Origin: Gammaproteobacteria bacterium | GTDB lineage: Bacteria > Pseudomonadota > Gammaproteobacteria > UBA6429 > Thiohalophilaceae | NCBI GenBank assembly: GCA_016125505.1 | Contig: WGLP01000007.1 | Span: 186,001 to 250,000, forward strand | Reading direction: 5' to 3' | DNA: 64,000 nucleotides | Shown here: in pieces, positions 2,225 to 11,855 of the stretch | Layout of the letters: each line of letters begins with the position of its first letter | Numbering within the stretch: the first letter of the stretch is position 1 | Position numbers and translations under genes: made by a program | The notes under the pieces: model-generated | Told to the model about the DNA's origin: nothing | Databases searched by the model: none | Seen by the model: the letters and a program-made list of their open reading frames with translations, nothing else

Positions 2225-2350
2225 ATGACTATGACGCAGCGAGTAATGGCACTACAGTCCGCACGCAGACTCATGCAACAGCGCCGTCAACAGGAACAGC
2301 AACAGAGGATCAGGAGACAATGGCAGCAATCAAAATTGAAAACAAAATAG
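2225..2350 (+). CDS. Small Gln/Arg-rich reading frame overlapping the start of nrdJb
   Basis: A 41-codon frame with a good Shine-Dalgarno (AGGAG at 2210-2214, 10 nt from the ATG). It encodes a basic, glutamine-rich peptide containing QQRRQQEQQQR and ends 31 bases inside nrdJb in another frame. It matches no family I know. Its position suggests a leader that couples or tunes nrdJb translation, or simply a chance frame; protein-level reality is unproven. Confidence 0.35.
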   Translation: MTMTQRVMALQSARRLMQQRRQQEQQQRIRRQWQQSKLKTK

Positions 2351-3036
2351 TCGGTTACGAAGTCGCCAAGGACGACGCCGACGACAAGGCCGCCGAGGCA
2401 GCGCTCAAAGAGGCGCGCGGTGACGTCGAGCAGACCAATGTCGTGCAGATGCACGAGAAGCTCGAGCGCCCGGACATGCTGCTCGGCAGTACCTACAAGA
2501 TCAAGACGCCGCTGACCGAACACGCCCTCTACGTCACCATCAATGACGTGATCCTGAACCCGGGCACCGAACACGAACTGCGGCGGCCGTTCGAGATCTT
2601 CATCAACAGCAAGAACATGGACCACTTCCAGTGGATCGTGGCGCTGACCCGGATTATCTCCGCCGTGTTCCGTAAAGGCGGCGACGTCACCTTCCTGGTG
2701 GAAGAGCTGCGCTCCGTGTTCGATCCGCGCGGCGGCTACTTCAAGAAGGGCGGCAAGTACATGCCCTCACTGGTGGCCGAGATCGGCGACGCCATCGAAT
2801 GTCACCTGCGCATGATCGGCCTGCTCAAGGACGAAGGCCTCGACGAACACCAGAAAAAACTCATCGAGGAAAAGCGCGTCCAGTACGAGGCCCAGGCCAA
2901 GATGGCCGACGCCGACGACGCCGGCTCCTCCTTCCCCGCCGGCGCGCAACTGTGCGCCAAGTGCAGCACCAAGGCCGTGGTGAAGATGGATGGGTGTATG
3001 ACTTGCCTCAACTGCGGTGATTCGAAGTGTGGTTAG
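2320..3036 (+). CDS. nrdJb: Ribonucleotide reductase class II accessory half NrdJb (TSCPD domain)
   Basis: 238 aa. Residues about 45-170 form the TSCPD domain typical of the C-terminal part of class II reductases. The last 30 residues hold five to six cysteines (CAKC, then GCMTCLNCG and a final C), the tail expected to re-reduce the NrdJa active site and possibly bind zinc. The start at 2320 is supported by AGGAG at 2312-2316, although spacing is short. It completes the reductase whose catalytic part is the previous gene, and a strong terminator follows about 100 bp later. Confidence 0.9.
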   Translation: MAAIKIENKIVGYEVAKDDADDKAAEAALKEARGDVEQTNVVQMHEKLERPDMLLGSTYKIKTPLTEHALYVTINDVILNPGTEHELRRPFEIFINSKNMDHFQWIVALTRIISAVFRKGGDVTFLVEELRSVFDPRGGYFKKGGKYMPSLVAEIGDAIECHLRMIGLLKDEGLDEHQKKLIEEKRVQYEAQAKMADADDAGSSFPAGAQLCAKCSTKAVVKMDGCMTCLNCGDSKCG

Positions 3037-3262: not shown

Positions 3263-3856
3263 ATGACATTTCTACAAATTTATGCAAAAGAAATTGTATC
3301 GCTTGTAGCGCCATTCGTTGCTTGGGCTTTGGCTAGATTTTTTAAAGCCAAGGCAAAAATTATACTCGCTAGTCCCCATTCTTTTACCTTCCTGGTACAG
3401 GAGCCGCTTAAAGACATGGAGGGCACAGTGATTAATCCTACTCAGACAGTTAAAACAGTGTCATATCTAATAAAAAACACAGGAAGCGAGCCTGCGAAGA
3501 ATATTGAGTTAGTTTTTAACTGGAAACCCCTATGTATCAATATATGGCCATCGAGACATATTACTGAACACGTAGAGAATGACAATCGTTACGTCGTTAT
3601 GTTTGAGAGTTTAGCTCCTTATGAATTTGTTGGTTTTGAATTGCTAACTGTGAATTCAGAGGCGCCAGCATTAATTACAGCACGTAGTGAGCAGTGTGTG
3701 GCAAAACAGATTGAGATGTATCCGCAGCAGGTAATAAAGCCTTGGCTCGCTAGAACAGCTGGGTTCTTAATGTTGGTCGGGCTAGGCGCAACTATTTATA
3801 TGGGACTATTGGTTTTACAATTCTTACTAGTGCGTACTCCTGTTGGGTTAGGATAA
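3263..3856 (+). CDS. Hypothetical membrane protein with two TM segments
   Basis: 197 aa, not assigned to a family. A hydrophobic stretch lies near residues 8-25 and a clear TM helix near 165-187, with a beta-rich soluble middle (about 40-155) containing SYLIKNTGSEPAKNIEL, reminiscent of an Ig-like or CARDB fold. The start has AGGAAAGG upstream. It is the first gene of the AT-rich accessory region, with base composition clearly lower in GC than nrdJb. Function unknown. Confidence 0.75.
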   Translation: MTFLQIYAKEIVSLVAPFVAWALARFFKAKAKIILASPHSFTFLVQEPLKDMEGTVINPTQTVKTVSYLIKNTGSEPAKNIELVFNWKPLCINIWPSRHITEHVENDNRYVVMFESLAPYEFVGFELLTVNSEAPALITARSEQCVAKQIEMYPQQVIKPWLARTAGFLMLVGLGATIYMGLLVLQFLLVRTPVGLG

Positions 3857-3944
3857 AGGAATGTGCCTATAAAATGGTATTTCAATGGATATAAAGAAGA
3901 AACTGTATATTTAATAAAATTATATGCGAGCGAGTATTTAGACA

Positions 3945-4395
3945 GTGACTATAGTGCGGACAGAAGAAGAGCAAAAAGAAGCAAATAAAATTTTTGAGTC
4001 TTTCAGGAATGAGCTGTTAAAGCGCGAGTTATCAAATACTGAAAGTTATGATAAGTCGATACTTACGTTATCTGCAGCTGCGCTTGGATTATCTCTGTCC
4101 GCAATAAGACTTATAGTTCCATTGGAGACAGCTAAATATATTTGTTTAATAAAGCTTGGATGGGCATTGCTTCTAATTAGTATTGCTACATCATTGTCGG
4201 CTTATTTGATGAGTAATAAGGCGATTACTGTTCAGTTAAAAAATGCTGAGGATTATTATGTTAAGGGTATCGAGGGTGCTTTTAATAAACGAAATATATA
4301 TTGAAATAAACAGCCTATTAAACTATGCAACTGGTTTGCTGTTTATTATTGCAATTTCCTCGATTTTGATATTTATAATGAACAATATAAGATAA
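3945..4395 (+). pseudogene. Two-TM membrane protein interrupted by a frame change at an AT repeat
   Basis: The open frame from GTG 3945 gives 119 aa with a charged N-terminus, a YDKSILTLSAAALGLSL segment and a TM helix near 87-107, stopping at TGA 4302-4304. Reading on in the +1 frame from 4300 to the TAA at 4393-4395 gives a further hydrophobic helix (LLNYATGLLFIIAISSILIF), as expected for the missing C-terminal membrane segment. The frames meet in AATATATATTGA; one extra AT unit would restore a single protein of about 150 aa. A 10-bp hairpin starts directly after the stop. It may be a mutation, an assembly error, a phase-variable tract or recoding. It lies just upstream of the Ser/Asn-rich gene at 4408. 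Confidence 0.6.
4305..4347 (+). repeat. 10-bp inverted repeat right after the premature stop
   Basis: AATAAACAGC (4305-4314) pairs perfectly with GCTGTTTATT (4338-4347) across a 23-nt loop. It begins on the base after the TGA that ends the first frame of the 3945 gene. The placement fits a frameshift-stimulating or terminating structure, but it lies within sequence coding for the second frame and could be incidental. Confidence 0.5.
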
Positions 4396-4407
4396 GGAGT
4401 GATAGGT

Positions 4408-4644
4408 ATGGCTAAGAGCGATAATGGAAGAAATACTACTTTTACTAACGATAGTGCTTCTGTGCCACGAATGCAGCAAGTACAAACCGTTAACGGAACA
4501 CTAAAGAAAAGTGCAAATATCCCAGGTATGCAGCAAGCCCCAGGAACATCAACTACTTCTCAAAGTAATGCAGGAAGTTTAAATAGTGGTTCTGATTCAT
4601 CAAATAACGGATCATCAGGATCGAATAGTGGCGCTAGTCAATAG
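4408..4644 (+). CDS. Small Ser/Asn/Gly-rich low-complexity protein
   Basis: 78 aa. The ATG at 4408 has AAGGAG 8 nt upstream, so it is preferred to the GTG at 4399. The sequence carries two related motifs (VPRMQQVQ and IPGMQQAP) and a C-terminal half made almost wholly of Ser, Asn, Gly and Thr. No signal peptide or TM segment is visible. It follows the full-length end of the preceding membrane gene by 12 bp and is probably co-transcribed with it. No family recognised; a disordered partner of the membrane protein is a guess. Confidence 0.6.
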   Translation: MAKSDNGRNTTFTNDSASVPRMQQVQTVNGTLKKSANIPGMQQAPGTSTTSQSNAGSLNSGSDSSNNGSSGSNSGASQ

Positions 4645-4697: not shown

Positions 4698-4781
4698 ATG
4701 CGCAAACACAAACAAAAACGCTGTCCCCGCTGCCGGGCGTTGTTTGAATGCAAGCCCGGGTCGGACCAATTGCGCATGTGA
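4698..4781 (+). pseudogene. CWC-family gene relic A (5' part only)
   Basis: An ATG-started frame of 27 codons whose first 22 residues (MRKHKQKRCPRCRALFECKP) match the start of the intact gene at 6161, then diverge and stop. DNA similarity to the intact copy is strong over about 65 bp and fades to weak similarity after it. Same orientation as all other copies. A truncated relic, probably non-functional. Confidence 0.7.
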
Positions 4782-4872
4782 TAGATATGTATAATAGGTG
4801 GTAATATTTCAGTATAAAAGTATCTTAACTTTATCTGCTTTATTATTATTTAATAAGGGTATCCTACAAATC

Positions 4873-5682
4873 GTGAATGGTAAAGGTAAAGTGCAATCTA
4901 TAGCTAGTTACTGGACTGGAATACAATCAGCGTTAGATGCTCGTCTATTATCTGTCAAAGAATACCTCAGACATCCAGCGTCAGGTTTTAATGGAGAAGG
5001 TTATTTTCGCGATTTGCTTAGAGAATATTTACCTAAACGTTACACTGTCGATACAGGGTTTGTAGTAAATGCGGACGGTGAACGAAGTGATTTTATAGAC
5101 GTTATAATTGCAGACACACAACATATACCTCTACTTTGCTCTGAGCCTCATTTCAAAGTATTCGCAGCCGAATCAGTTGTAGCTGTGATAGAAATTACCT
5201 CTGCTCCTAAATCAACTGTGACGCAAAGTGGCGATAAGCATAAAGTTCCAAAAATCGAGGATGATTTGATTAAGATTGCAGGGGTAAGGAGGATTGCAAA
5301 AAAAAGAAAATATGTAGACAAGCTACCAGATATAAATAATGAGACGCTTACTTTTTCTAGCCTCGAATTTGAGATTTCTTTATCACCTCGGTCGTTTCTA
5401 ATTATTTATGGAGACGAATGGCAAAAACAAAAAACATACGAGAAACATTTATTGTCTGCATTAAATTCAGCAAAAAATAAAGGCTATGAAGTATGGGTTA
5501 ACGCAGTGTTAAGTATGAAACATGGTATGTTTCATGTTACGCCACATACGGAATTTGAAATTAATAATATTAAAGATAATGCGTTACTTGAATTTCTCTT
5601 GTTTATTAATAGAGCAATATCAACTTACGATACTTATCGAATAGATATTGGTCGATATAGGCCTACAATTCCAGAAGAATAA
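4873..5682 (+). CDS. DUF6602-family protein
   Basis: 269 aa from GTG 4873; the frame stays open back to GTG 4798, but the extra 25 residues are hydrophobic and not expected in this family. Near residue 40 begins FNGEGYFRDLLREYLPKRY, then SDFIDVIIAD and VVAVIEITS. This layout resembles restriction-endonuclease-like folds (D...E-x-K), although the expected Lys is Ser here. DUF6602 is a family of unknown function often seen among mobile or defence-type genes. It is bracketed by CWC relics A and B. The family call is from recalled sequence patterns. Confidence 0.65.
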   Translation: MNGKGKVQSIASYWTGIQSALDARLLSVKEYLRHPASGFNGEGYFRDLLREYLPKRYTVDTGFVVNADGERSDFIDVIIADTQHIPLLCSEPHFKVFAAESVVAVIEITSAPKSTVTQSGDKHKVPKIEDDLIKIAGVRRIAKKRKYVDKLPDINNETLTFSSLEFEISLSPRSFLIIYGDEWQKQKTYEKHLLSALNSAKNKGYEVWVNAVLSMKHGMFHVTPHTEFEINNIKDNALLEFLLFINRAISTYDTYRIDIGRYRPTIPEE

Positions 5683-5750
5683 TGAGAATAGTAAAAATTA
5701 GTTGAATATTTGGGTCAGAGTAAAAACTGTACTGTAATCACTCTTATCGA

Positions 5751-5816
5751 ATGCGCAAACACGAACAAAAACGCTGTTCCCGTTGTCTGGCGCTTGTTGA
5801 ATGCAGGTCAGGTTAA
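5751..5816 (+). pseudogene. CWC-family gene relic B (5' part only)
   Basis: A 21-codon frame closely matching the first residues of the intact CWC gene (RKHEQKRCSRCLA), ending in TAA. About 30 bp upstream also resemble the sequence before the intact copy (GTAAAAAC and TAATCA..CT), so the duplicated unit included the leader. It lies between the DUF6602 gene and the small membrane gene. Confidence 0.7.
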
Positions 5817-5862
5817 ATATTAATGAATACCTAATTATGTTTTGAAAAGTGAGAGAACAGTT

Positions 5863-6099
5863 ATGGAACCGCAAATGCTAACAAGTGGAGTAGGAATCGT
5901 AATATTAATATTTATTATTATTCTATCTATACTTTGGTTTTTACTGCCATTTGCTGTTTTTGGAATAAAAAGACGCCTTGATAGAATGATAGAGCAAAAC
6001 GATGAGGTTATTACTTTGCTTCAGATGAGAAATAATAAACCTGAAATTCGTAAGTCAAGTGATAAAAATGAAAGAATAGAACCAATTATCAATCTGTAA
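5863..6099 (+). CDS. Small single-TM membrane protein
   Basis: 78 aa from ATG 5863; a TTG at 5842 is possible but has no ribosome site. One strong TM helix (about residues 8-32, VGIVILIFIIILSILWFLL) is followed by a cytoplasmic helix with IKRRLDRMIEQNDEVITLL. That plan is common in small membrane proteins that oligomerise through a short coiled coil. Function unknown. It sits alone between CWC copies B and C. Confidence 0.65.
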   Translation: MEPQMLTSGVGIVILIFIIILSILWFLLPFAVFGIKRRLDRMIEQNDEVITLLQMRNNKPEIRKSSDKNERIEPIINL

Positions 6100-6160
6100 G
6101 GACGAGTGAGTTGGAATATATGAGGTCTGTGTAAAAACCAAAATTTAATCATTCTTTTTA

Positions 6161-6400
6161 ATGCACAAACACGAACAAAAACGCTGTCCCCGTTGCCAGG
6201 TGCTGTTTGAATGTAAGTCCGGTTCGATCCTGCTGTGCCAGTGTCAGACGGTATACCTGACGCCGGAACATCTGGAATACGTGAGCGAGCGCTACACGGA
6301 CTGCCTGTGTGCTAGCTGTCTGAAGGCGATGCGGATGGAGTATGACATCGCGCAATTAACCGATCAGATAGAGGCGCTGGCCGGAAACAAGTGGCGGTGA
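6161..6400 (+). CDS. Cysteine-rich CWC-family protein (intact copy C)
   Basis: 79 aa with eight cysteines: C9, C12, C18, C26, C28, C48, C50 and C53, in the CPxC...CxC...CxCxxC spacing of small cysteine-rich CWC proteins, probably zinc-binding; molecular role unknown. It is the only uninterrupted member of a seven-copy family in this region. Its GC content is higher than that of the flanking cargo. The segment before the ATG is shared with relic B. Relics A, B, D and E keep the 5' end; E, F and G keep the 3' end. Confidence 0.75.
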   Translation: MHKHEQKRCPRCQVLFECKSGSILLCQCQTVYLTPEHLEYVSERYTDCLCASCLKAMRMEYDIAQLTDQIEALAGNKWR

Positions 6401-6417
6401 GTATTAGACGTCCGTTT

Positions 6418-6834
6418 CTACTGCAAGGGTACGAAATTCGTCGTCATCACCTTTTTGGTTTTATTCCAATTTACCTCAATTTTTATTTTATCCTGGTCAT
6501 CATATAGCGTGTAACTCCACCAGCCATTCGCGGCTAATACTTCAGCATAGAGCTGGTTGAAATAATCAGAAGTTTGTGAAGATTGTGGATCGTAAGGGAA
6601 GGAAACATAAAAAATAGGATATTGTTTATGTTTGGTAAGGACAACTTTGCTAAGTTTGACTTTGTGTTGGGCAAAAACTTTTTTTACTGGGTGCCGCCAG
6701 TTGGCGATATCAGCAATAACGACAGTATCTACTGGTTTAGAGTCAGAATCAGAGTTGGCGCACGCTGAAAATGTAGTGGTAAGGATGAAGACAGATAAGA
6801 ATATTTTGAATAATTTTAGATTGGGCGCTTTCAT
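6418..6834 (-). CDS. Lipoprotein of unknown function, paired with a GH73 enzyme
   Basis: 138 aa with a lipoprotein signal peptide: basic start, hydrophobic core and lipobox FSAC at Cys24. The mature part has no family I recognise; about 110 residues with NGWWSYTLYDD near the end. It begins 11 bp after the GH73 gene, so both share one minus-strand transcript. An envelope-anchored protein directly downstream of a hydrolase without signal peptide would fit an immunity protein; an accessory cell-wall protein is the alternative. Confidence 0.7.
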   Translation of the reverse strand: MKAPNLKLFKIFLSVFILTTTFSACANSDSDSKPVDTVVIADIANWRHPVKKVFAQHKVKLSKVVLTKHKQYPIFYVSFPYDPQSSQTSDYFNQLYAEVLAANGWWSYTLYDDQDKIKIEVNWNKTKKVMTTNFVPLQ

Positions 6835-6845
6835 TTATTATTCTC

Positions 6846-7415
6846 TTATGGAGTTTTAATCGGTTTTACAGCCGCGAGTTTCTGATTGTACTGATATAAG
6901 TTATATTTCTTCATAATACTGGTTAGCAGGTTTGCATAGTTAGGATCTGTCGCGTAGCCAGCGTTTTGCAAGCCCTGTGCGAAATCGTCAGCGTTTTTGG
7001 TTTTTGCATAGCTGGCAAGAGCTGAGCTGTAGCGAGGATTGTTCTTAAGAAACATGCCGTGGTCAAGAAATGAGTCACTCATGTTTTTGTATGAGCGAAA
7101 ATGGGCAGTAATCGATATGTCCTTATTTAGGGCCTTAATGTGTTCCTTTGTGGTTTTATCAACATAGCCTTTAGCAATATTCCCGTACCTAACCTTGCCA
7201 TTTACGGTTTGTGCCTTCACGCCAAAATAATTATTCGCTGCGCCCATGTGATGTTTCCCCCAGCCAGATTCCAGAATTGCCTGAGCAATGGTGATGGAAG
7301 CGGGGACACCCGTAAGCTTTTCTGAATTTTGTGCTGGATGTATTGCCTGCTGTATGAAGGTATGATTTGTACTGTGTAATGATTGAAAATTCTTGGTTTG
7401 TTGAGAAGCGGGCAT
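6846..7415 (-). CDS. GH73-type N-acetylglucosaminidase (FlgJ-like), no signal peptide
   Basis: 189 aa from the ATG at 7415, which has GAGG 9 nt upstream; an in-frame ATG 18 bp earlier overlaps that site. Residues about 20-165 form the glucosaminidase domain that cleaves peptidoglycan: AQAILESGWGKH with the catalytic Glu, NYFGVKA, and YKNMSDSFLDH. No signal peptide or TM helix is visible, so export needs a secretion system, a phage-style holin or another route. A well-formed promoter lies at 7469-7497 and a lipoprotein gene follows. Confidence 0.85.
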   Translation of the reverse strand: MPASQQTKNFQSLHSTNHTFIQQAIHPAQNSEKLTGVPASITIAQAILESGWGKHHMGAANNYFGVKAQTVNGKVRYGNIAKGYVDKTTKEHIKALNKDISITAHFRSYKNMSDSFLDHGMFLKNNPRYSSALASYAKTKNADDFAQGLQNAGYATDPNYANLLTSIMKKYNLYQYNQKLAAVKPIKTP

Positions 7416-7441
7416 CTTTATCCTCAATTTCAATTCGTATG

Positions 7442-7458
7442 AACAGCAAAATGCTGTT
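7442..7458. promoter_or_regulatory. Operator-like palindrome near the GH73 transcription start
   Basis: AACAGCA (7442-7448) and TGCTGTT (7452-7458) form a perfect 7-bp inverted repeat around AAA, just downstream of the predicted -10 on the minus strand. This is a usual repressor position; the regulator is unknown. Confidence 0.45.
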
Positions 7459-7468
7459 TGTAGAGCGA

Positions 7469-7497
7469 AATATAAAGACTAATAATCGATTGGTCAA
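7469..7497 (-). promoter_or_regulatory. Sigma70-type promoter for the GH73-lipoprotein operon
   Basis: On the minus strand, TTGACC (7497-7492) and TATATT (7474-7469) are separated by exactly 17 bp. Both hexamers are close to consensus. The expected start, near 7461, leaves a leader of about 45 nt before the ATG at 7415. Confidence 0.65.
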
Positions 7498-7599
7498 AAT
7501 AATAACATTCCATAGTATTAATACTGTTTTGAAGTTTCGAAGTAATAAGAGACAATCCTTTAAATCATAATTATATAGTTGATCTGTTTTAATTTGATT

Positions 7600-7697
7600 A
7601 TGCGAAAAAAAGAACAAAATGTTGTCACTGATGCCAGGCACTGTTTGAATGCAAGTCCGATTCGGTCCTGTCGTGCCAGTGCCAGCCAGTATTTTAA
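7600..7697 (+). pseudogene. CWC-family gene relic D (frameshifted)
   Basis: About 98 bp matching the intact gene from its ATG through the CxC region. A one-base deletion in the CPRC-coding stretch puts the rest out of frame. Similarity ends after CCAGTAT. Same orientation as the other copies; it separates the GH73 operon from the membrane gene at 7763. Confidence 0.7.
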
Positions 7698-7762
7698 GAA
7701 GCGCGATTGTATATTTATGAAGCGTAGAGTGTGAATTACTAAATTAGTAATGGGAGTCACTT

Positions 7763-8086
7763 ATGAAGAAAACCATAATAACAACAAATATCATCCTCCT
7801 ATTGGCTAGCGCCTTTGCAGTCTGGATTGCTTTATATTATGGGGATGCAACTGCGAATGTGAGTCGAATGATCAATGAAGACGCCGAGATGGTAGAGTCG
7901 CGTGGATTAATATGCAATGTTGATGAATGCCGTGGCCTTATTAAGGAAGAATTGAAGTTTATACGGGCAAATCTGAAAGCACATGTTAAGACAGTCCATG
8001 TTTTGAAAATCGTATCGGTAGTTGCAGCAATAGGGTTTCTGTTGAATTTTCTCCTGGCTTTTACGATAAAACGTAGAGTTGCTTGA
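7763..8086 (+). CDS. Small two-TM membrane protein with a Cys pair in its loop
   Basis: 107 aa. The ATG at 7763 has a GGGAG ribosome site. TM helices lie at about 5-27 and 80-102, enclosing a 50-residue loop, probably periplasmic, that holds CNVDEC and a charged helix. The C-terminus is basic (KRR). No family recognised. It lies alone between CWC relics D and E, as cargo of the array. Confidence 0.7.
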   Translation: MKKTIITTNIILLLASAFAVWIALYYGDATANVSRMINEDAEMVESRGLICNVDECRGLIKEELKFIRANLKAHVKTVHVLKIVSVVAAIGFLLNFLLAFTIKRRVA

Positions 8087-8126
8087 GGTTATCGGCATTA
8101 AAATTGAGTAATGTGTAAGTTTGACT

Positions 8127-8192
8127 GTGCGCAAACACTAACAAAAACGCTGTCCTCGCTGCCAGGCACTTGCCGGAAACAAATGGCGCTAA
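8127..8192 (+). pseudogene. CWC-family gene relic E (5' and 3' ends fused)
   Basis: The first 42 bp match the 5' end of the CWC gene, with a TAA at codon 5 and GTG in place of ATG. They are joined directly to its last codons (LAGNKWR and stop). About 170 bp of the middle has been deleted, so this relic shows the original gene spanned both ends. It lies between the genes at 7763 and 8307. Confidence 0.75.
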
Positions 8193-8306
8193 GGCGGCTG
8201 GTTAACAAGTGCCGGCCTGTACTAAAATTCAATTCTTTACGACTATAATAGATATCGGAAACTGGTCGGCTCTGTAAGGAAGCAATATTGGATTGGGAGG
8301 TCTGGT

Positions 8307-9053
8307 ATGAACGACGACGGGCAGAACAAACAAGCCGGGTCAGCGGCTGAGTCACCATCCGCAACCGCAGAGGGGACGCGGAAAGCTTCGGCGGGCAGTT
8401 ATCCCTCTCTCGAATTGACCAAAGTGATCCTTGAGTTTTTGGGGAAGACTTTTTACCCGGTGATCATCATTGTCATTCTGGTCTTGTTGTGGCCAGCGAT
8501 TTCGGGCATCGATTTTTCCAGATTATTTGGCAACATCAAGTCAGCCAAGGTGGGCGGCGTTGAACTTACCTTCGACCAGGCCCAGGATATCGGCGCGGAG
8601 ATTGCGCCGCTCAATAGCAAGGTGGCGCAACTCGAACGCGACCTCAAGACAATGACGGCCAGCATGGCCCGGCTGCAAACCGCGACGAATGTACCAAAGG
8701 CATCCCAGCAGGAAACGAAGGAACTCGCCGCAAAAGAAATGGCGTTCAAGGCGAATTCGGCATATACGATTCTGGTGTTTCACCGCGCGGAGAGCAGGGA
8801 AAGGGCCGCGTTGCTGACCAAGAACTTGCTGGCTGACGGCTATCAATCATCGGACACCGAGACCAATTTTTCGGAACTGAAGAAAGTCAAACCCGAGGAC
8901 AATGTCGTGTTCCTCACCTATACCAGTGCAGGCAAGGAGATATTGACCGATTTGCAAAAAAGGATAGCCGCGATTGCACCGCAGGCGGAGGTGCGCGTAA
9001 ACCCGCGCGCGATCGATCTTAAGCGCGGGGATGTCCAGATCCTGGTGTTCTGA
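8307..9053 (+). CDS. Membrane-anchored protein with coiled coil and C-terminal alpha/beta domain
   Basis: 248 aa. Residues 1-35 are disordered, 45-65 form a TM helix (FYPVIIIVILVLLWPAI), and about 95-130 are predicted coiled coil. Residues 150-248 look like an alpha/beta domain (YTILVFHRAESRERAALLTKNLL ... RVNPRAIDLKRGD) faintly like LytR C-terminal or SPOR-type envelope domains; I do not assign it. A GGGAGG ribosome site precedes the ATG and a TATAAT hexamer lies at 8244-8249. Function unknown. Confidence 0.75.
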   Translation: MNDDGQNKQAGSAAESPSATAEGTRKASAGSYPSLELTKVILEFLGKTFYPVIIIVILVLLWPAISGIDFSRLFGNIKSAKVGGVELTFDQAQDIGAEIAPLNSKVAQLERDLKTMTASMARLQTATNVPKASQQETKELAAKEMAFKANSAYTILVFHRAESRERAALLTKNLLADGYQSSDTETNFSELKKVKPEDNVVFLTYTSAGKEILTDLQKRIAAIAPQAEVRVNPRAIDLKRGDVQILVF

Positions 9054-9185
9054 ATCAGCGCGCAATAATCTCTAATATAAATGCAGACACACACGAGAAA
9101 TCACGCTATTACAGTCGCCAATCTCTGTTAGAACACAAGATATATTTAATATAAGAAAGATAGTAGCAAGGTCGAGATCACCTAT

Positions 9186-9290
9186 ATGAGTAACGTGAAT
9201 CTGAATTCACCGTTACACCAGGTCGGTGAAAGTTATGGCGTCAAAAAGCTTACTTCCGATGCACCGCATTGGTCGTTTAATGGCAGATAA
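9186..9290 (+). CDS. Possible 34-aa peptide
   Basis: A short ATG-started frame (MSNVNLNSPLHQVGESYGVK...) in the 267-bp gap between two genes. It has no clear ribosome-binding site and no recognised family. It could be a decayed gene end; listed only because it is the one plausible frame in this gap. Confidence 0.2.
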   Translation: MSNVNLNSPLHQVGESYGVKKLTSDAPHWSFNGR

Positions 9291-9320
9291 ATATTAGCCA
9301 GACCATAGAGAATTAATAAT

Positions 9321-9917
9321 ATGAAAATTCAGCATATGCATGTAGCAAGGATCATCGCACTATCTATGATGGTGTTGTTTTTAGTCGGTGGATGCCAGAA
9401 GAAGTCTGGGCTTGATGAGCATGAGTCCGTATCCAGTTTCAAATACAAGACTTCGGTCGGGTGGTTGCAGGGGCCGTGCCTGGCAATCGAGAACGATAGC
9501 ATCAAACCTGGCAGCCGCCTGGTGCTGGTGTTGTTTAAAGACAAGCCGGCATTGGGCGAGGCGTTCGTGGAATCGAAAACCAACGCTAACTGTCCGGCGT
9601 TAAATCAGGACAGGGAGAGTATCAACCGGAAAAAAGGAATGACATTCTATTCGCTAAAATCAAGCGATATTGAAGCGAATACCATCGCTATCGCAGTACT
9701 GACCGACAGGAAAATATCGGCATTAAAGCCTGTTTCATCCACATCCGCACAGCTCGATATTAATGGCGATGGCCGGGCAGAGGAAGTGAATAATTGCGTG
9801 ACGAGCGAAGGAATCAAATTTTTTATCTGGCCCGAAAAGGCCTATTCAGATACGCCATTATGGGAAGATTATTATTACCTTGGTTATGACCTGAAGCCTA
9901 CATGCCCAGCCATGTAA
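9321..9917 (+). CDS. Lipoprotein with a DxNGDG calcium-loop-like motif
   Basis: 198 aa. A basic start and hydrophobic core end in lipobox LVGGC (Cys25), so it should be lipid-anchored. Near residue 150 the sequence DINGDGRAEE is an EF-hand/dockerin-type calcium loop, and Cys pairs in the mature part could form disulfides. No family recognised. The next reading frame begins about 40 bp downstream. Confidence 0.7.
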   Translation: MKIQHMHVARIIALSMMVLFLVGGCQKKSGLDEHESVSSFKYKTSVGWLQGPCLAIENDSIKPGSRLVLVLFKDKPALGEAFVESKTNANCPALNQDRESINRKKGMTFYSLKSSDIEANTIAIAVLTDRKISALKPVSSTSAQLDINGDGRAEEVNNCVTSEGIKFFIWPEKAYSDTPLWEDYYYLGYDLKPTCPAM

Positions 9918-9958
9918 ACAACGACGATTCAACTCATTATGCTCTATCGAGAAGGTGA

Positions 9959-10698
9959 TCGATAATTCGGCCTGAAATCCCGCTTAATCCGTCACGGGTG
10001 TCACTGGACCGTGCGAAAGACGACAAGGCCTGCATGACCTTTGTAAAGTCCAGGCAGGAACAGGCCTCGTTCATCAAACAGCACCTGGCGACCACGCAAC
10101 AGGTCCTGAAAAAGAACCAGGAGTTGATCAGGCTCGCCGGTGACTTTGTCAAAAACCTTCAGCGTATCCGTAAGCAACGTGGACATACCGGGAGTTTGTC
10201 CAATGTCACGAAGGCCGACATCCGCGATGCCGGTGGCACAAAAGTGTTAATGGCTGCGTGCGGCAAGGGTTTCCCCTCGATGTCGATTACCGCGGGCGGC
10301 GATGGTTCGTATGTTGTTGGTGTGAACGCCTCGGGCGGTATCGCCTTCGGTCTGGAGGCGGAGTCGGCGACAAGAATGACGGGAATGACTAGATCGATCG
10401 CAACACCGACTTCGGCATCGCGACGCTCGGTACGGTCAATGGCAGTATCGGTGCCTCGGTGGGTGGTGACGCCTCGATCAACGTCGGCTTCTGGAAGGCG
10501 TCATATAACAAGCTCTATGGTTTTGCCCAAGGCATCGTGCTGGGCGGATCGTATGCGGAAGTGGGCGTCAACGGTTCGGCCTGGTGGGCGATCAACTGGG
10601 GCGCGAAAGATGAATTCGCCGGGTTCTCGGTGGGCTATCAGGGCGGCCTGTCTGCCGAGGCGGAATACGACTGGGGCTACACCTTCCAGAAAAATTAA
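9959..10698 (+). pseudogene. Frameshifted gene for a glycine-rich beta-type protein
   Basis: The first frame (GTG 9998; open from 9959) encodes a helical N-terminus (about 60 aa) and then SMSITAGGDGSYVVGVNASGG. From about 10390 the matching continuation lies one frame away and runs to the TAA at 10696 (TLGTVNGSIGASVGG ... WWAINWGAKDEFAGFSVGY). The two parts share the same Gly/Ala/aromatic style, so one gene has been split by an indel near 10365-10390. No ribosome site is clear at the start, so the 5' end may also be lost. Family unknown. Confidence 0.55.
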
Positions 10699-10702
10699 CG
10701 TC

Positions 10703-11185
10703 TCAGAGCAGGAGATCGGCCTCGATAGGGTGGTAGGCGTCGGCGGCATTGATCAGCGAGGTCGCGGTGAGCGCGGGCACGCCGTAGACCTCGGTGCTGA
10801 CCGCGTACTCGGTCCTGACCTTTTCCAGTAACAGATCAAAGTCGCCATCGCCTGACAACAGGATCACCCGCTTGACGTCTCTGGCGATTTGCATCACATC
10901 GAGGGTGATGCCGACATCCCAGTCGCCCTTGGCGGAGCCATCGCTGCGCTGAATAAACGGTTTGAGTTTGACGCTAAAGCCGATATGCCGCAGGGCATCC
11001 TGAAACTTGCGCTGGTTGTCATCGTCACGCGCGATGGCGTAGGCAATGGCCGACACGATGTCCCCTTGCCCACTGACGCGTTGCCAGAACGCCCGGTAGT
11101 TGAACTGGCGGCCGTAGGCCTGGCGGGTGGTGTAATAGATGTTTTGCACATCGGCAAAAATGGCGATCTTGTCAGCGTTGCTCAA
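10703..11185 (-). CDS. NYN-domain (LabA/DUF88-type) putative ribonuclease
   Basis: 160 aa, nearly all NYN domain of the PIN-like fold. Conserved acidic positions are visible: IFADVQN near the start, KGDWDVGITLD in the middle and LLSGDGDFDLL near residue 112. These form the metal site that cleaves RNA in this family. The gene is convergent with the broken gene at 9959-10698 and begins next to CWC relic F. NYN proteins often occur among stress or defence genes; the target is unknown. Confidence 0.85.
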   Translation of the reverse strand: MSNADKIAIFADVQNIYYTTRQAYGRQFNYRAFWQRVSGQGDIVSAIAYAIARDDDNQRKFQDALRHIGFSVKLKPFIQRSDGSAKGDWDVGITLDVMQIARDVKRVILLSGDGDFDLLLEKVRTEYAVSTEVYGVPALTATSLINAADAYHPIEADLLL

Positions 11186-11204
11186 ATTGCCGGTCCTCTT
11201 ATAT

Positions 11205-11292
11205 ATACCTGATGCCCGAATATCTGGAATATGACATCACGCCATTGAGTGATCAAATCGAGGCACAGTTCGTCCGGGAACAAGTAACGCTA
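11205..11292 (+). pseudogene. CWC-family gene relic F (middle and 3' part)
   Basis: Matches the intact CWC gene from its TATACCTGACGCC region to near its stop, with an in-frame deletion of about 63 bp joining PEYLEY to DIxxLSDQIEA. Read from ATG 11212 it gives a 29-residue frame. It lies upstream of the NYN gene and on the opposite strand. Confidence 0.7.
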
Positions 11293-11371
11293 ATTGAATA
11301 GCTGGTTGATTAAGTAAACCTGTTACCTAACCAACCAGTGTCGACCGCAAAATGCTTCTAGGCCAGCAGCC

Positions 11372-11569
11372 TCATTTAGCCGGGATACACTCCGGGCACG
11401 GGACCGAACTTGAAAACCAGTTCGCGGCTTCCTTGAGCGGCGCCGCGGTATTGCTGCGGACCCCGATGAGATGCACCTGGTCTTTTGCGGGGAGTGATGA
11501 GCAACCATCCCGGTGCACAACGTGTGCACCATCTGCATTTGCGCTTTTTTCTACAAAGAACTCATCCAT
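11372..11569 (-). CDS. Small conserved protein with His/Cys motifs
   Basis: 65 aa. The sequence ADGAHVVHRDGCSSLP, a middle Ala-rich helix, and a final CPEC resemble a recurrent family of 60-70 aa bacterial proteins of unknown function (H-x-x-H-x-x-x-C ... C-x-x-C), possibly metal-binding. The ATG at 11569 has GAGGTGAT 8-9 nt upstream on the minus strand. It lies between CWC relics F and G. Confidence 0.65.
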   Translation of the reverse strand: MDEFFVEKSANADGAHVVHRDGCSSLPAKDQVHLIGVRSNTAAPLKEAANWFSSSVPCPECIPAK

Positions 11570-11630
11570 ATCTCTATCACCTCGTAATTCTATTAGTGGT
11601 TTATCTGCCTGAGCGATGACCGCAGTGATT

Positions 11631-11695
11631 GAGTGGTTTTGTCAACTATCACACTTTTGTACGATAGTTTTGTACTATATCTGACAAAATCACTC
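11631..11695. repeat. 65-bp nested inverted repeat
   Basis: Outer arms GAGTGGTTTTGTCA (11631-11644) and TGACAAAATCACTC (11682-11695) match at 13 of 14 positions. Inside are a second inverted repeat, ACTATC/GATAGT (11645-11650, 11663-11668), and a direct repeat of TTTTGTAC (11655-11662, 11668-11675). This could be a recombination site, a regulator array for the minus-strand gene at 11569, or a relic of a small element. Confidence 0.6.
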
Positions 11696-11797
11696 CGTTT
11701 TTCACGCATAATCGTTCCCAGCAGGGGTATCAGCAAGAACTATTCCTGGGCGAGACGGGTGTGAAAAGTGGCGTCAGAGAACAAGAGACACTAATTA

Positions 11798-11855
11798 TAT
11801 ACTTGCGCAATTGACCGAACACCGCGGCAGGCGATGCGGTCACTGGCGGCGTTGA
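11798..11855 (+). pseudogene. CWC-family gene relic G (3' end only)
   Basis: Matches the last 17 codons of the intact CWC gene (GCGCAATTGACCGA ... TGGCGGCG, then TGA) in the same orientation. It is the rightmost copy found and ends just before the ribosome site of the gene at 11874, marking the right border of the array. Confidence 0.6.

Follow-up and report, generated by a model that had tools for sequence, protein, structure and literature searches.

The interval between nrdJ and a small cysteine-rich gene of the Cys_rich_CWC family (PF14375, CWC below) is best explained, with about even confidence, as a hotspot of gene acquisition in the family of Thiohalophilus, with the sequence around the CWC start serving as a repeated anchor for homologous recombination. 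Direct repeats copied from this region enclose the incoming genes in four genomes belonging to three genera. The repeats are restricted to this locus, the cargo between them differs, and in one genome units are rejoined at the repeat. The repeats of all four arrays lie within about -130 to +231 of the CWC ATG, and their form depends on the lineage: leader plus the 5' part of CWC in the window, leader plus the whole of CWC in a second genus (G020), and a 60-bp piece of the leader in Thiohalophilus. The window is the whole stretch of 64,000 nucleotides analysed here (G000:C21:186001-250000, G000 being the window's genome).

CWC copies and cargo in the window

An earlier note on this DNA listed seven copies of the CWC gene at 4698 to 11798. 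Six copies or pieces (A to F) lie within 4698-11303, all on the + strand and one of them intact; none of 500 shuffles attained their scores, and blastn agrees. The seventh, G, proposed at 11798, was rejected, its best match (11805-11821, + strand) being 17 nt long and equalled by 8 of 500 shuffles. A genome-wide search found no further CWC copy elsewhere in G000. The features of the interval are listed below.

23-2002, + strand: nrdJ-type ribonucleotide reductase (tblastn in relatives; family name from sequence inspection)
2320-3036, + strand: zinc-ribbon partner of nrdJ (tblastn in relatives; family name from sequence inspection)
3263-4644, + strand: three small cargo ORFs (197, 119 and 81 aa) left of the first CWC copy, AT-rich, 33-41% GC
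4698-4763, + strand: CWC relic A, CWC nt 1-66 at 86%, weaker to about nt 90 (blastn, shuffles)
4798-5682, + strand: DUF6602 (PF20247) protein, a NucC-like PD-(D/E)XK nuclease, 34% GC
5690-5814, + strand: CWC relic B, with the CWC part (nt 1-64) at 5751-5814 (blastn, shuffles)
5863-6099, + strand: small one-TM protein, 30% GC
6161-6400, + strand: intact CWC gene C, 79 aa, PF14375
6418-6834 and 6846-7433, opposite (-) strand: lipoprotein-like protein and GH73-type glucosaminidase (endolysin-like), 40% GC
7600-7694, + strand: CWC relic D, nt 1-95; its match at 7600-7692 (nt 1-94) has one 1-nt deletion (blastn, shuffles)
7763-8086, + strand: small two-TM protein, 40% GC
8128-8193, + strand: CWC relic E, 8128-8166 (nt 2-40) joined to 8164-8188 (nt 212-236)
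8307-9917, + strand: 248-aa protein and lipoprotein (9321-9917), 47-55% GC
9998-10698, + strand: probable broken cargo gene between the lipoprotein and NYN genes, inferred from ORFs (two overlapping frames), 57% GC
10703-11185, - strand: NYN-domain protein, host-like 59% GC
11204-11303, + strand: CWC relic F, 11204-11231 (nt 92-119) and 11225-11285 (nt 176-232), with an internal deletion
11372-11569, - strand: small His/Cys-rich ORF, no Pfam match

The intact copy had been correctly placed at 6161, and this gene C scores 44.6 bits against the PF14375 profile, above the curated cut-off of 24. It shares with relic B a leader of about 55 bp (from 5700 in B), and a GGGTCAGA motif lies at 5712. Relic E does join both ends of the gene, as the note had it: the 5' 39 nt are fused to the 3' 25 nt over a short similar sequence, so that the middle is lost by internal deletion. 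Relic D ends at the GTATAC point where relic F starts. The idea that left copies keep the 5' end and right copies the 3' end describes A, B and D against F, but E has both ends, and as a general rule it fails since several G020 copies run from ATG to stop.

The cargo families named from the letters alone, DUF6602, glucosaminidase of the GH73 type and NYN, are all present. The DUF6602 protein scores as NucC-like (E 2.8e-25 and 1.6e-21), and this nuclease was found in none of the 39 related genomes (40 family genomes were searched, including the window's). The ORFs scanned at 3263-4644 have no PADLOC or NCBIfam match. In the left half of the array CWC copies of 46-56% GC alternate with AT-rich cargo of 30-40% GC (nrdJ has 59%), and this AT-rich cargo is foreign. 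Most of the right-half cargo has a host-like GC content (47-59%), which counts against the hotspot explanation.

The same locus in related genomes

CWC is found near nrdJ in G000, G001, G007, G014, G015, G020 and G054, and in several relatives nrdJ and its zinc-ribbon partner are conserved on the left side of the CWC locus (tblastn). The earlier note had suggested comparing relatives for the same CWC gene with different cargo, or for a locus with one copy. The former is seen in G020 and in the pair of congeners G018 and G001; the latter near nrdJ in G015, G014 and G054, each of which has a single CWC copy without flanking direct repeats. Some other relatives have neither a CWC copy nor the repeats. 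The same copies with the same cargo in a fixed order were not encountered in relatives. No array was found among the 369 class-level genomes drawn or at the other CWC loci fetched. G016 was rejected as a further case of insertion into CWC: one copy ends in transposase-like DNA, in all likelihood from an IS, and the second is full-length but decayed.

In G020, too, the array sits downstream of the nrdJ genes, in the stretch from nrdJ to the end of the contig, and consists of complete or near-complete copies, fragments and one leader relic. Its cargo is different from that of the window and includes an IrrE-like peptidase, a kinase resembling PD-T4-6, MORN and Sel1 proteins and unknowns. In these copies homology stops at the CWC stop codon, a sharper end than random crossovers would predict, and this too counts against the hotspot explanation. 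Copy c2 has a 62-nt insert (L029 9289-9350) exactly where other copies break; it has no match among the sequences compared.

The array copies are 72-90% alike in G000 and 78-93% alike in G020, compared with 50-67% between the two genomes; each array has therefore grown in its own lineage. G000 and G020 are each the sole genome examined with its form of the repeat, and the G020 array runs to the contig end. The G020 array copies are 66-69% alike to the copy that G020 carries on C119. Mismatches at codon positions one, two and three are 3/3/3 between A and C, 2/4/4 between B and C and 7/9/12 between G020 c1 and c4. This spread is unlike the 5/3/18 of the functional orthologues of G001 and G018, and the spare copies are thus under little or no constraint.

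The likeness within G000 and within G020 also fits plain local duplication. The CWC gene could have been duplicated in the ordinary way in a region that also collects foreign DNA, copies and cargo then being products of separate processes. That the closest relatives of the copies are copies in the same genome, that the array copies lack codon-position bias and that they decay by internal deletion all agree with this. However, the repeats of the four genomes always lie round the same gene start and at no other tested CWC locus, the copies alternate with cargo and are not in tandem, and the G001 units are rejoined at repeats, and we consider this explanation distinctly improbable. Single genomes fit both duplication within the lineage and uptake from kin. 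The relatives support an array over the decay of one gene.

What is repeated in Thiohalophilus is for the most part the CWC leader and not the gene. G001 (Thiohalophilus thiocyanatoxydans DSM 16326) and G018, a second species of the genus, contain a direct repeat of about 60 bp which ends just before CWC and occurs genome-wide only at the CWC locus. Each genome has five matches to it, and G001 has a sixth, weaker copy before CWC. It has no match in G000, G020 or G015, and four other genomes have merely weak matches of 17-22 nt elsewhere in the genome. There is no Rfam match at the repeat, and a known RNA element was rejected for it. Rfam does report a group II intron piece (RF01999) at L041 14245-14363, within the G001 array beside a truncated unit.

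The cargo of the two species differs, with none in common between the repeats on clustering. In G018 an Mrr nuclease immediately precedes the first repeat, and the repeats enclose a pPIWI-associated nuclease, an IS256-like transposase and small membrane proteins. In G001 a methyltransferase and a possible restriction enzyme precede the repeats, which enclose an outer-membrane protein, a permease and a DsbA-like protein. G001 also has a CWC relic (nt 31-90) 6.4 kb downstream of its intact gene. The repeats of the two species interleave, with identity of up to 91% between species compared with 65-93% within, and they also interleave on a tree of these short sequences. Repeat R1 of G001 connects the left flank of R3 (92%, 191 bp) with the right flank of R4 (95%, 167 bp), and a second copy of the R3 unit, in truncated form, begins at R2; units have therefore been rejoined exactly at the repeat in this one genome. 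An attC-bearing cassette stretch with longer repeats of its own lies just upstream of the repeat array in G018 (L195 1-13000).

Possible routes of array formation

In the hotspot explanation, DNA from kin that bears a copy of the repeat would recombine with the resident copy by homologous recombination, a step that we infer. Entry may be by a single crossover, or with one homologous and one illegitimate end, and would leave the arriving genes with a copy on either side. Copies would then cross over with each other, as seen in G001, so that units are reordered, doubled or lost. Free of selection, the spare CWC copies would decay by mutation and short-homology deletion into relics like those of the window, where internal deletions are seen in E and F. 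Against the recombination reading, neither a donor molecule nor a circle nor a recent event was seen, and units are shown to be rejoined at the repeat in one genome only.

The earlier reading of the locus as a cassette array built by recombination through CWC survives as far as the array is concerned, given G020, the two Thiohalophilus species and the single-copy loci; the seven copies and the suggestion that CWC is a functional part of a mobile system are not supported. The third-position bias is lost in the array copies and the Thiohalophilus repeat is mostly leader. Searches of IMG/VR viral contigs and of phage records returned no relative of CWC, and the only plasmid record (Agarilytica) has an annotation without sign of an array, so a phage or plasmid origin of CWC was rejected; with the anchor gene not found in viral genomes, the arrays do not class as a prophage or viral element. 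CWC thus looks like an anchor or boundary, not a motor. A literature search on the CWC family returned nothing on arrays. Promoter consensus scans of the repeats gave no excess over shuffles, and the repeats are unsupported as promoter copies.

Five ends fall at CWC nt 92-100, namely those of D and F in G000, of c2 and c3 in G020 and of the G001 relic. This cluster hints at a specific site, but its p is only about 0.03 by a hand estimate that counts D and F as one event. A site-specific recombinase, now absent or acting in trans, could insert elements at one fixed point, either within CWC or directly ahead of it, the new 5' end brought by the element restoring the gene. Islands of the tRNA, dusA and guaA type insert into a gene end and restore the gene, and those which enter the 5' end of dusA bring a new 5' end that does so. 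The CWC arrays resemble such islands in having a fragment at the far end, an intact copy at the near end and stacking on repeated insertion, and the order of A, cargo, B, cargo and intact C suits repeated insertion with restoration of the gene. Nevertheless, the breaks of B (nt 64), E (nt 40) and the leader relic (nt ~33) lie outside this cluster, the register of the repeat depends on the lineage, and in Thiohalophilus it is mostly upstream of the gene. No tyrosine integrase was found at the arrays either: Phage_integrase (PF00589) has no match on G000 C21 or on G020 C5 and C119, and the closest one in G018 lies about 12 kb ahead of the first repeat. We regard a recombinase of this kind as unlikely.

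RAYT genes are flanked by inverted REPs (PMC2817692). A Y1 (HUH) transposase of this kind could act at GGGGTCAG-type ends, with the CWC units carrying such an end in their leader. Motifs of this type precede five of six G020 copies or leader relics, and each of the five GGG[TA]CA[GA][AG] motifs in that array is followed, 20-60 bp further on and on the same strand, by a CWC copy or a leader relic. In G001 such motifs are also present where truncated units end. In this family several RAYT-type genes lie between inverted repeats of 19-27 bp beginning GGGGTCAG, and one 15-mer both flanks the G000 RAYTs and precedes G020 c2 and c4. On the other hand, G020 has no Y1_Tnp match, the window has a clear motif at copy B only, the matching right end is absent, and the CWC copies, whose units carry a host gene, are at one locus with none dispersed. 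The Y1_Tnp genes of G000, G001, G018 and G015 are away from the arrays. This route appears very unlikely. RAYT-type Y1 transposase genes with GGGGTCAG inverted repeats are found at L151, L152, L155 and L156, and a REPIN-like inverted pair at L038:5551-5620.

Known systems and meaning of the locus

No known cassette-moving enzyme or site was found at the locus. The arrays resemble integrons and CALINs in having mostly co-directional small genes between direct repeats of 60-240 bp, cargo that varies among relatives and no integrase in the array. Unlike these, the repeats have no paired R boxes, and they are copied from the host's own sequence at CWC. A scan for attC box pairs (complementary RYYYAAC and GTTRRRY) found none in all four array intervals; the same scan found attC-like sites at the integron region of G000 and upstream of the G018 array. 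IntI (TIGR02249) is present in 33 of the 40 family genomes, often as open frames of about 470-480 codons (L193, L194, L196 and others). These genes are on other contigs or far off (G000 C2, G020 C37, and about 110 kb away on G018 C2), and G001 has an array with no IntI match. With no attC pairs and no IntI at the arrays, membership of this class was rejected.

By analogy, the closest published case is that of the orphan immunity arrays of T6SS, for which homology-facilitated illegitimate recombination with a conserved anchor has been described; homologous recombination has also been invoked for these arrays and for Rhs orphan modules (PMC5361080). There, as here, variable genes pile up beside a conserved anchor, displaced pieces of the anchor gene remain and there is no integrase. 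The CWC arrays have the displaced anchor fragments and the variable modules differing between relatives that mark an array of the T6SS/Rhs type. They differ in that no effector-immunity pairing is recognised, the cargo is mostly of unrelated functions, the anchor is an unrelated small gene or its leader alone, and the copies cluster by genome. No toxin or immunity families were found in the scanned cargo, in which many ORFs have no match. Among the cargo are nuclease, R-M, kinase and Mrr/pPIWI-associated genes. The nuclease, R-M and kinase cargo, which several genomes have at this conserved site, recalls a defence island or HGT hotspot, with the difference that direct repeats derived from the adjacent host gene enclose the cargo here.

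There is a small chance that the CWC start region serves an undescribed gene-capture platform, without an integrase or with an unknown recombinase, as its site of recombination. In this case kin would exchange units of repeat plus gene in an integron-like manner, with lineage-specific repeats derived from one host gene.

If the CWC start does act as an anchor for homologous recombination, a locus can turn into a cassette array without integrase or attC as each arrival copies its neighbour. This would help to explain how gene-collecting islands start. It would also provide a simple sequence sign to seek elsewhere, direct repeats derived from the end of a single host gene and separated by dissimilar cargo. 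Many uncharacterised and possibly defensive genes would be placed at a known address, and this reading can be tested in a named strain, Thiohalophilus thiocyanatoxydans DSM 16326.
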